Assembly (NCBI GenBank): GCA_013348845.1
Contig: CP054675.1
Span: forward strand, 310,001 to 374,000
Length of the DNA stretch: 64,000 nt
Direction of reading: 5' to 3'
Source of the DNA: Candidatus Tepidiaquacella proteinivora
GTDB taxonomy: Bacteria; Bacteroidota; Ignavibacteria; Tepidaquicellales; Tepidaquicellaceae
How positions within the stretch are numbered: the stretch's first letter is position 1; every line of letters starts with the position of its first letter. Positions 46,456 through 52,912 of the stretch are shown piece by piece. The position numbers were made by a program, and so were the translations under genes. The notes beneath the pieces are model-generated. The model was not told the DNA's origin. It was given only the letters and a program-made list of their open reading frames with translations, and ran no database searches.

Positions 46456-47262
46456 TTAAAAAGATACTTTACGAAACATATATTTCTAATATTACTTTTA
46501 TCTCTTTTTATTCTTGTAAATTCATTTGCTGAGAATACACAGTTATATTCAGGCAAATTTACTGTTATTATTGATGCAGGACATGGTGGTAAAGATCCGG
46601 GAACAACCGGAACTACGGGTGTTCAGGAAAAAACGCTTAATCTTTCAATTGCTTTAAAATTAAAGGACCTTCTCACTGAGAAATATGATGATATCAATGT
46701 CATTCTGACAAGAGATAAAGATGAGTATATTGAACTAAAAGACAGGGGAAGGATAGCAAATGAAAACAATGGAAATCTGTTTGTGAGCATACATTGTAAT
46801 TATAAGAAAAAAGAAGAACACGATAAAAACGGTTTTGAAATTTATATCTCTGATCTGACAAGAACTTCGGAAGCAGAAGGATATACAAAAGCAGAAAATA
46901 AATTTTTTTATCAGGGAAAGACAGATACAGCCTCAATTACATGGAAGGAATATGTAAGTATTGCTGTTCCACTCCTGCAAAATATATATTTCAGGATGTC
47001 TGAATATTTCGCTACAATTTTAGAACTGGAGCTAACCAAAGGAACAGTTTTGGAAAGCAGGGGAATACAACAGGAGGGTTATTTTGTATTAATTGGAGCT
47101 TCTATGCCGGTTGTTCTTATTGAGTGTGGATTTCTTTCAAATGTTGGTGATGAAAGATATATAAAATCACAAAGAGGCCAAAACGATATTGCAAAAGCTA
47201 TTTACAAATCTATAATTCTTTATAAAATGGACTATGATTATATGAAAACTATTTTGAGATGA
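46456..47262 (+). CDS. N-acetylmuramoyl-L-alanine amidase with non-standard start codon
   Basis: The frame gives an Amidase_3 zinc enzyme that cuts the amide between muramic acid and the stem peptide. Zinc ligands and catalytic residues are intact: IIDAGHGGKDPGTTG, the glutamate in QEKTLNLS, SIHCN, and VLIECGFLSN. Ahead of it is an ideal signal peptide (KRYFTKHIFLILLLSLFIL then VNSFA). There is no ATG, GTG or TTG between the stop at 46453-46455 and a GTG at 46783 that lies beyond the first zinc motif. The most natural start is TTA at 46456, where one base change would give TTG. I therefore annotate 268 aa from there. Either a rare start codon, a recent mutation or a sequencing error explains it. 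It lies 110 bp after the tRNA. Confidence 0.85.
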   Translation, partial: LKRYFTKHIFLILLLSLFILVNSFAENTQLYSGKFTVIIDAGHGGKDPGTTGTTGVQEKTLNLSIALKLKDLLTEKYDDINVILTRDKDEYIELKDRGRIANENNGNLFVSIHCNYKKKEEHDKNGFEIYISDLTRTSEAEGYTKAENKFFYQGKTDTASITWKEYVSIAVPLLQNIYFRMSEYFATILELELTKGTVLESRGIQQEGYFVLIGASMPVVLIECGFLSNVGDERYIKSQRGQNDIAKAIYKSIILYKMDYDYMKTILR

Positions 47263-48443: not shown

Positions 48444-51419
48444 TTATTTAGGTTTTATAATTACACCTAATTTCTGATAAGTATTCATTTTTATGGTTAG
48501 AGGTTTTTCTAATCTGATGTGTTTAACATATTTTTTTTCCTCAATGGGTTGAATGGAAGATAACCAGTCCCAATCTATAAAATTGTCCTTAATTTTTGAA
48601 TTTATAGTAAAATAGTGAATCATAAATGAAGTTATATTATGGAAAAAGTGAGAGCCCTGAGAAGGTTCTACATCCATATCTTTCATACCCGCTTCAACAA
48701 TAACTTTTGCACCCGAAATATTAGACCAGGTAACAGGTATCCCAAGCCATGGGTCTAAAGTACCCCATCTACCCAATCCTATCAATATATATGGTGTTTT
48801 TTCGTTAAGTAATTTTGAATTAAACTGATTTACCTCTAATGCGATGTCTCTTGTTTTAGACCTTTCAAACTTATGGATGTCAACAAAAACTATATCTCTG
48901 ATATAATCAATAGTACCGTTTCCAAGAACTTCAGTACTCTTACAAATTAAATTTTCTCTGTTAATACTATTAATTGTATGGTCAGAAGTATCTTCCGAAA
49001 TAACCACAGGTCTCATTTGCAGGATTCCGAATTCTTTTGGTTCTCCTTTCGGTACAGACATTCTGACGGCAAACTCTATTTCAACGGGGGTCCCTAAACC
49101 AGAAGAGCCGATATTCAGAAGTAATTGTATAATTGATGGCAGCGGAAAAATATTGTTTTTAAGAATTGGAGAAAAAGTTACCAGTCTGGAGCCGTGTCTT
49201 GATAGCCCATCATAGATAGCATTATTTTCATGTGAATATGTCGAACCGACATAATGTAAAGTTCCATCTTCCTCAGCGGAATGTATATCATAAAGTTTGG
49301 TATAATTATCAATATAATTATAATCAGAGTCATTGTAATCTGCTTCAAGGTCAAGGGCATAAAAATATTTCTGATTATTAGATAATGCTTCTTTAGGATT
49401 ATAGAACTGTATTAGTTTGGTTGGATATTTTGGACAAAATCTGACACAATTTCCACCTTCAACAATTGTTTTACCAAGTCCTAATGCAACAAGTACAACA
49501 CCATCTTTTGAGCTCATAGGTGGTAAGGGATAGTAATTATAAGATTTAGCAACTCCTGAAAAGTCGGGGTAAAATCTGTTTTTATGTATAGTACCCATCA
49601 TTCTCTGAATAATTACAGCCATTTTCTCTTCTTCCATTCTGTAAGAAGTAATCTTAATGTAATTTTTTGCATTAGGAGAGAAAGTTGAAGCATAAACTAA
49701 TTTGATTGCATTTAACAAATCCCTCAATCTTTTTTCAAGGTCGGGGTGATTGTTTGGAATCATATAAGTATCATAGACGCCTGCAAAAGGATGATATTGT
49801 GAGTCTTCGAGCAGGCTTGAAGACCTGACTGAAAGAGGAAATTGTACAAGGTCAAGAAAATCACTTAAGTTTGAAACAATATCAGCAGGGAACTTATTAG
49901 CTTCAAAGAATCTTCTTTTTATTTCGTCGTAATCTTCAGATTTTAAAGCAAAACTTCTAAGATTATTCTCGTCTAAAAACTGGTCGAAAGCATCTGTTCC
50001 AATAACAACAGCAGAGGGAACATCAATTTTGACACCAGAGAAATTATTAGTAATATTATAGAAATTTACAAGTGTATTCAGAAAACTTAATCCGCGCGCT
50101 TTTCCTCCTATTGAACCACCGCCAATTCTGGCAAAATTATAATTTGGGTCAAAAGTTGTTTTTTTAAAGTCAGTTATAATACCCCGTGTTCTTACTTTTC
50201 TGTATTGTTTCAGTGCTGCAATTAAATAGCTTCTTAAATCTTCTATTGATTTATAATCTTCTACCTTTTTAGGTCTCAACTTATCAGCCAGCCAAAATTC
50301 TGTTCTTGCTTTAAGCCAGTTGGAAAAATGGTTCCTTTCTCCGTGATATCTGATTGATTCAGCTGGTAATTTTTTCAGTACTTTCTCAAGAGATATTAAA
50401 TCAGTGGCTCTGCCAACTTCTTTTCCATCTGGTGTTTTGAAAATAAAATCACCGAAACCAAAGTGTTGAGTAATGAATTCCCTTAACTCTTGTAAAAATA
50501 ATGGTGATTGTTTTAGCAGAAAGCTCAGCTTGTGTTCCTCAGCTTTTATTTTATTTGAAGGGTCTGAAGATTGTAATAAAATCGGAATATCTGAATAGTG
50601 TTTCCTGACTTCATTGGCAAAAATAAATCCCGCATCTTTATTGTGTATCCCATCTTTACTAAACTCTACATCTGAAATTATACCAAGTATATATTCCTGA
50701 TATTTATTAAAGTAATCAAAAGCTTCCTCATAACTTGTGCATAGAATAATTTTCGGTCTTGCACGCATTCTTAAGGATTTATGGTATATATTGATACCCT
50801 CTAAAATAAGTCTTTGCGATTGTTTTATAATTTCAGTATAAATAACAGGTAAAAAAGTAGAATAACTTCTTATATCATCTTCTATTAAAATAATAGACTG
50901 AACCCCAATAAGTTTGGTATCATTTTCAATATTCATTTTGTCTTCAAGGCATTTTATGACACCAATTATTAGTTTATAATCTCCTGTCCAGATAAAGATT
51001 TTTTCATAAACATTAATATCAGGTCTTTGTAATAAATTCTTTATTTCTAAATTATCAAATGAAAGTAATACAATCGGAATATCGGGATATAAATTTTTAA
51101 TTTTATGTGCAAATTCTATAGGCGACATTTCGTCTATGTGCAAAGTCGTAACAACTAAATCAATTCTTTTTTCCTCCAGTAATTTTAAAGCATCTTTAAC
51201 ACTATTAGTTCGGGTAATTTCCGGAGCGTGGGTTAACTGCAATCCCTGATATTCATTTCTGATTAATTCATATAATCTTCCATCTTCTTCAAACAGATAT
51301 AAATCATAAAGACTTGAAACAAGCAGAACATCCCTGATTCGTTTTTTCATTAGATTGTTGAATTCCTGAAACAAACTAATAAAATTCAGGTCTAACAACT
51401 TTAAATCTGATTGTACCAT
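48444..51419 (-). CDS. Two-receiver protein with PEP/pyruvate-binding (PPDK N-terminal) domain and unknown C-terminal domain
   Basis: The 991-aa protein has four parts. Residues about 30-150 resemble a receiver domain but the acceptor aspartate position reads VVTTL. Residues about 172-320 are a second receiver with IILIEDD, acceptor-like IISDVEF near 248, LLQSSDPS and a lysine in FLLKQ. Residues about 425-830 match the ATP-grasp PEP/pyruvate-binding domain: RIGGGSIGGKARGLSFLN, PLSVRSSSLLEDSQ, PFAGVYDTY, and IEFAVR...LQMRPV. Residues about 880-985 form a domain with GLGRWGTLDPWLGIPVTW and SHFFHNITSFMIHYF. The mobile phosphohistidine domain (TSHxA) and the PEP-forming TIM barrel of PEP synthase and PPDK are absent. 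So it cannot run the full reaction alone. I infer a signalling or regulatory ATP-binding protein. It has its own terminator. Confidence 0.8.
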   Translation of the reverse strand: MVQSDLKLLDLNFISLFQEFNNLMKKRIRDVLLVSSLYDLYLFEEDGRLYELIRNEYQGLQLTHAPEITRTNSVKDALKLLEEKRIDLVVTTLHIDEMSPIEFAHKIKNLYPDIPIVLLSFDNLEIKNLLQRPDINVYEKIFIWTGDYKLIIGVIKCLEDKMNIENDTKLIGVQSIILIEDDIRSYSTFLPVIYTEIIKQSQRLILEGINIYHKSLRMRARPKIILCTSYEEAFDYFNKYQEYILGIISDVEFSKDGIHNKDAGFIFANEVRKHYSDIPILLQSSDPSNKIKAEEHKLSFLLKQSPLFLQELREFITQHFGFGDFIFKTPDGKEVGRATDLISLEKVLKKLPAESIRYHGERNHFSNWLKARTEFWLADKLRPKKVEDYKSIEDLRSYLIAALKQYRKVRTRGIITDFKKTTFDPNYNFARIGGGSIGGKARGLSFLNTLVNFYNITNNFSGVKIDVPSAVVIGTDAFDQFLDENNLRSFALKSEDYDEIKRRFFEANKFPADIVSNLSDFLDLVQFPLSVRSSSLLEDSQYHPFAGVYDTYMIPNNHPDLEKRLRDLLNAIKLVYASTFSPNAKNYIKITSYRMEEEKMAVIIQRMMGTIHKNRFYPDFSGVAKSYNYYPLPPMSSKDGVVLVALGLGKTIVEGGNCVRFCPKYPTKLIQFYNPKEALSNNQKYFYALDLEADYNDSDYNYIDNYTKLYDIHSAEEDGTLHYVGSTYSHENNAIYDGLSRHGSRLVTFSPILKNNIFPLPSIIQLLLNIGSSGLGTPVEIEFAVRMSVPKGEPKEFGILQMRPVVISEDTSDHTINSINRENLICKSTEVLGNGTIDYIRDIVFVDIHKFERSKTRDIALEVNQFNSKLLNEKTPYILIGLGRWGTLDPWLGIPVTWSNISGAKVIVEAGMKDMDVEPSQGSHFFHNITSFMIHYFTINSKIKDNFIDWDWLSSIQPIEEKKYVKHIRLEKPLTIKMNTYQKLGVIIKPK

Positions 51420-51443: not shown

Positions 51444-51476
51444 TAAAAAAAAGGAGCGAATATTAAAATTCGCTCC
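51444..51476 (-). terminator. Intrinsic terminator of gdhA
   Basis: GGAGCGAAT at 51453-51461 is the exact inverse complement of ATTCGCTCC at 51468-51476, with a 6-nt loop. On the minus strand the stem runs into eight T residues. Confidence 0.92.

Positions 51477-51508: not shown

Positions 51509-52912
<1,404 letters not shown>

Follow-up and report, generated by a model that had tools for sequence, protein, structure and literature searches.

The window, by which we mean the whole 64,000-nucleotide stretch of DNA analysed, contains on its minus strand an open reading frame whose 991-aa product joins two receivers to an ATP-grasp domain and a C-terminal domain, and the question is what such a protein acts upon. 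The architecture is conserved at 70 homologous places, and the protein is most probably a regulator of glutamate dehydrogenase (GDH) that has so far gone undescribed. The features of the locus are as follows.

48444..51419, minus strand: ORF of the receiver-receiver-PPDK_N-C-terminal-domain protein, 991 aa; stop codon 48444-48446
50931..51341, minus strand: receiver 1, aa 27-163, degenerate (Pfam Response_reg E 1.5e-7; VIA-align; conservation)
50445..50903, minus strand: receiver 2, aa 173-325, intact, acceptor D250 (VIA-align; conservation)
50670-50672, minus strand: codon of D250, the receiver 2 acceptor
50136..50444, minus strand: linker domain, aa 326-428, weakly DUF5752-like (PF19027 E 0.0043, under the cut-off)
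49002..50135, minus strand: ATP-grasp domain of PPDK_N/PEPS type, aa 429-806 (PF01326 E 1.3e-37)
48447..49001, minus strand: C-terminal domain, aa 807-991, probable divergent phosphohistidine swivelling domain (AF2 model, VIA-align)
48648..48650, minus strand: codon of H924, candidate phospho-histidine in QGSHFFHN (invariance; helix start in the model)
51453..51476, minus strand: hairpin resembling an intrinsic terminator, with 8 T after it, in the gap from gdhA to the regulator gene
51509..52867, minus strand: gdhA-like glutamate dehydrogenase, 452 aa, partner gene (Pfam ELFV_dehydrog and ELFV_dehydrog_N; linkage; co-occurrence)

Receivers and ATP-grasp domain

The original prediction described one receiver as degenerate, with VVTTL at the acceptor site, and the other, with IISDVEF, as apparently functional, and both descriptions hold. 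Receiver 1 aligns to receiver domains with a Z of about 12.5 in VIA-align and its Pfam match, over aa 60-122, is weak; VVTTL begins at aa 89, placing T92 at the phospho-Asp position, and the acid pocket is replaced by S35/S36. Receiver 2, with IISDVEF at aa 247, reaches Z values up to 13.9, and E180, D250, S/T284 and K303 are each kept in all 73 aligned homologues, position 181 being D or N. The two-component signature (acceptor Asp, acid pocket, T/S and K) is thus complete in receiver 2, whereas receiver 1 does not carry it. A complete receiver is shared with response regulators, but Pfam finds neither a DNA-binding nor any other known response-regulator output domain, the output being a dikinase-like core. 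The linker domain is strongly conserved, with the motifs FGFGDFVF and YHxxRNHFSNWLKAR. No kinase gene adjoins the gene, as had been stated for this locus.

The ATP-grasp domain is of the PPDK/PEP-synthase type, as predicted. PF01326 matches aa 436-822, hhalign of the protein against PEP synthases gives an E of 1.6e-22, and the domain aligns to PEP synthase 2ols with a Z of 22. Loss of the ATP-binding residues, which would have spoken against the prediction, was looked for, and K440, R532, E538, D539, Q605, E780, E782 and Q801 were all found in 73/73 homologues; their roles are those that we take over from PPDK and PEPS. By sequence the closest solved ATP-grasp is that of RPH, in which the roles of Lys22 and Arg117 are the basis for the equivalents in the window protein (PMC4844700). 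Of the marks of a PEP synthase or PPDK, the PPDK_N domain and the ATP-site residues (K, R, E/D-x-E, Q) are present.

With these residues intact, the protein might be a metabolic dikinase switched by its receivers, whose substrate would be a small molecule tied to the GDH reaction (e.g. an amino acid or a 2-oxo acid), and the characterised dikinases with this ATP-grasp all act on small molecules, pyruvate being one. Rifampin is another (PMC4844700). We consider this unlikely, since the substrate has a domain to itself in PEPS, PPDK and RPH, whereas a third, substrate-binding domain is absent here, and a 578-aa paralogue, PP578, is made up of the ATP-grasp and the C-terminal domain only.

The C-terminal domain

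It had been proposed that the chain lacks both the TIM barrel and the mobile histidine domain of the dikinases. The PEP/pyruvate TIM barrel is indeed absent, judging by Pfam and by the end of the ORF, since the chain ends after the C-terminal domain, but the histidine domain is probably present. In the sequence databases the C-terminal domain has no assignment by Pfam, NCBIfam or PADLOC, in line with the prediction, and PF00391 (GGxTSHxA) does not match it; two other loci in the same genome do match. When the domain alone was compared with phosphohistidine domains by hhalign the result was not significant, and Foldseek gave no significant match for the domain.

The structure models were built from 11-14 sequences, with the paralogues from the same genome left out of the input. 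The full-length AlphaFold2 model, which has a mean pLDDT of 76, was compared with solved structures and shows two receiver folds and an ATP-grasp domain of the PEP synthase/RPH type. The C-terminal domain was also folded alone, with a confident model as the result (AF2 pLDDT 88.1, pTM 0.87). Phosphohistidine swivelling domains make up 12 of the 14 best structural neighbours of this domain in VIA-align, for which the Foldseek candidates were the input, with Z values of 5-6.6 that are middling and in a range where chance arrangements occur. The best are the extra C-terminal domains of the pyruvate kinases 3t05 (Z 6.6) and 2e28 (6.3), and the others are from RPH (5fbu, 5hv2, 5fbs), PPDK (5jvj, 5lu4, 5jvl, 2x0s) and Enzyme I-type proteins (5t1o, 2eza, 2ezb). 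Many lower matches are to what we take to be other swivelling beta/beta/alpha domains, e.g. those of aconitase and the apical domains of chaperonins.

Since the Z values are middling, the case also rests on the domain order, the profile alignment and an invariant histidine. In the full-length model aa 413-991 align with PPDK 9-509 and PEP synthase 10-467, the order being ATP-grasp and then His domain as in PPDK. The hhalign alignment to PEP synthases can be trusted into the first beta-hairpin of the phosphohistidine domain of PEPS, beyond which confidence is lost, and it does not set H924 on the PEPS histidine. A pairing of GRWG, not GSHFF, with GGRTCH in the long-profile alignment was rejected, as it has very low confidence and a spacing too short for the helix. 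All 132 non-redundant members have H924, in SQGSHFFHN, and S920 and G922 are likewise completely conserved. In the AF2 model the helix that links strands 4 and 5 starts with H924, in the position that the phospho-His occupies in PPDK (TSH motif).

Taken on the fold neighbours, the domain order, the alignment of the first hairpin and the invariance and position of H924, the C-terminal domain is probably a divergent phosphohistidine swivelling domain, and the claim that the mobile histidine domain is missing is probably wrong. The evidence is moderate; what turned up, where a TSHxA-type domain might have been overlooked, is a GSHFF-type histidine in a predicted swivelling beta/beta/alpha fold. 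When searched as a separate family, the domain is found nearly always in open frames of at least 550 aa; no stand-alone copy was seen among the matches, and those in shorter frames (134-450 aa) appear to be pieces, either broken or cut off at contig ends.

Glutamate dehydrogenase as probable partner

A gene for a hexameric-type GDH of 452 aa lies directly upstream on the same strand with a gap of 90 bp. This neighbour, unmentioned in the original prediction, proves to be the key context. Counted in the fetched loci whose flanks reach 1 kb or more on each side, GDH is found within 500 bp of the window-type protein in 39/58 members, of the 578-aa type in 8/8 and of a 1052-aa type in 17/23. Same-strand, divergent and convergent arrangements all occur. 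The hairpin between gdhA and the regulator gene is strong, and hairpins of differing sequence with T tails are present at the same site in most of the relatives examined, which probably means that GDH and the regulator are made in different amounts; with a terminator-like hairpin between the genes, the conserved neighbourhood is more than a simple operon. In L160 (8622-10570) a window-type protein has no adjoining GDH; its neighbours are a STAS domain protein, a receiver-SpoIIE phosphatase and a 147-aa ORF, by resemblance a putative anti-sigma kinase.

GDH and the protein are tied more closely by co-occurrence than by adjacency. Of 59 related genomes, 32 have both the window-type protein and its GDH orthologues and 27 have neither, with no discordant genome (Fisher 2e-17), and the two genes are often far apart, e.g. 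by about 46 kb in genome G055. For the 578/1052-aa type and a 428-aa GDH the same genomes give 24/1/0/34, with one discordant (Fisher 1e-15), while the crossed pairs are far weaker (P 2e-5 and 1e-5) and so give a measure of the phylogenetic background. These P values assume independent genomes, an assumption that does not hold, and the lack of exceptions and the specificity of pairing weigh more than the P values. Within the phylum (395 genomes), each of the 55 carriers of the window-type protein has its GDH, whereas 78 of the 133 genomes with the GDH are without the protein, 76 of these outside the class, indicating that the GDH can work without the regulator. In a second phylum, that of an Eisenbacteria record, 18 genomes have both, one the protein only, nine the GDH only and 19 neither, i.e. 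18/19 carriers have the GDH (P 1.6e-5). The dependence is hence mainly one-way, the protein needing its GDH and not the reverse, and GDH is the only partner to which the genomes point.

A mirror-tree comparison of GDH and regulator, uncontrolled for the species tree, gives an r of 0.75, and double-copy loci yield no clear picture. Distant carriers within the phylum (L146, L148, L149 and L151-L153) have two GDH genes of the same type, and in L151-L153 the GDH nearest to the regulator falls in a separate, more diverged GDH clade with 54-56% identity. No GDH residue cleanly separates the regulator-linked GDHs from the others, E41 and Y370 differing weakly, and no phospho-acceptor site is therefore indicated.

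This last result fits a serious alternative, a non-catalytic allosteric regulator in which the core senses adenylates, the receiver state shifts the conformation, and GDH is bound and thereby tuned without phosphotransfer. Such a regulator would show GDH linkage and co-occurrence equally well, and the C-terminal domain is far diverged from the catalytic phosphohistidine domains; against it, the catalytic ATP-site residues never vary, nor do H924, S920 and G922, and this exceeds what adenylate binding alone needs. We hold such a regulator to be rather improbable, though it has to be reckoned with.

The genome to which the window belongs carries two paralogues elsewhere, both behind a second GDH, of 428 aa.

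G000:C1:1120676-1126454 (L065 6209-12455): cluster of the 428-aa GDH and the 578-aa and 1052-aa proteins

PP578 is without receivers and without an internal acceptor domain, and since it consists of only the ATP-grasp and the C-terminal domain, the acceptor should be another molecule. In the 1052-aa paralogue the same two domains are joined to a nucleotidyltransferase domain, and the cluster is possibly a module that modifies GDH by two chemistries. In some relatives the 428-aa GDH cluster is adjoined by a HisKA_3 histidine kinase and a receiver-LuxR protein, as in L072 (12023-13827) and, similarly, in L071 and L073.

PP578 also bears on the idea of a self-contained phosphorelay, in which phosphate would pass from ATP via H924 to D250 of the same chain, the dikinase core replacing a histidine kinase. 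The histidine and a complete receiver active site are both invariant in one chain and there is no adjoining kinase gene, as this would lead one to expect, but the receiver-less PP578 keeps the same C-terminal domain, so that the basic job needs no receiver, and we regard the relay as very unlikely.

Proposed function and known systems

We give about even credence to a dedicated GDH regulator in which a receiver-controlled ATP-grasp/phosphohistidine core passes phosphate via H924 to an acceptor, likely GDH. An unlinked histidine kinase would switch the intact receiver 2, which in turn would control the dikinase-type core of ATP-grasp and divergent swivelling domain. By analogy with the chemistry of PEPS, PPDK and RPH, the ATP-grasp would most likely phosphorylate H924, and the mobile His domain would hand the phosphate on to an acceptor that is not part of the chain, GDH being the likeliest. 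Transfer would then set GDH activity, in a direction that we can only infer. The regulator probably acts by phosphotransfer, with GDH as the candidate acceptor, and what bears on its putative effect on GDH activity is linkage and co-occurrence. The phosphorelay-controlled, ATP-dependent phosphotransfer of the original prediction fits this anatomy, and GDH is now a candidate partner for it, but its premise that no phosphohistidine domain is present is probably wrong. A more specific reading, that of a two-component-controlled dikinase-type protein kinase which phosphorylates GDH, with the receiver-less and nucleotidyltransferase-fused paralogues serving the second GDH, is put forward tentatively.

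PEP synthase (pyruvate, water dikinase, TIGR01418) and PPDK resemble the window protein in the nucleotide-binding residues of the ATP-grasp and in the domain right after it, modelled here as of the swivelling beta/beta/alpha kind, with its conserved His. The probable His domain of the window protein is, however, unrecognisable by sequence, there is no PEP/pyruvate TIM barrel, and two N-terminal receivers and the tie to GDH genes are added. RPH has, as is probable for the window protein, an ATP-grasp and a His swivel domain without the PEP barrel (PMC4844700), but a large rifampin-binding domain lies between the two; the window protein has nothing there, its C-terminal domain coming directly after the ATP-grasp. 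HpeI of Rhodococcus (9goj) also has a PPDK_N-type ATP-grasp in a chain without the barrel, but as a stand-alone subunit, whereas the window chain adds the C-terminal domain and the receivers.

The core belongs to the dikinase superfamily. Neither the window protein nor the GDH pairing is described in the papers searched, which took in a minority of subscription papers, and the combination of receivers, this C-terminal domain and a GDH partner did not turn up there either. To our knowledge there is no earlier case of a PEP-synthase/PPDK core used for signalling. Bacterial GDH control is usually seen as transcription and simple allostery. Dedicated covalent control of a central nitrogen enzyme is known from the glutamine synthetase adenylyltransferase GlnE / GlnD. 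The comparison is an analogy only: these enzymes have no sequence or fold relation to the window protein, and another chemistry is expected, although the 1052-aa paralogue beside the second GDH does carry a nucleotidyltransferase domain. A family always found with particular GDH types, in three architectures and at least two phyla, would add a post-translational control point, new in itself, where carbon, energy and nitrogen metabolism meet. If the protein kinase reading is true, protein phosphotransferases would gain a new kind and nitrogen regulation a new layer. With GDH assigned as the partner, the function can be tested directly with two proteins.

At 46783-47262 of the window, on the plus strand, an ORF of 159 aa encodes an N-acetylmuramoyl-L-alanine amidase that matches the second half of the Pfam profile only. 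The amidase ORFs at the same position in the relatives L045 and L049 are 269-278 aa long, and from its sequence the window ORF looks frameshifted or truncated.
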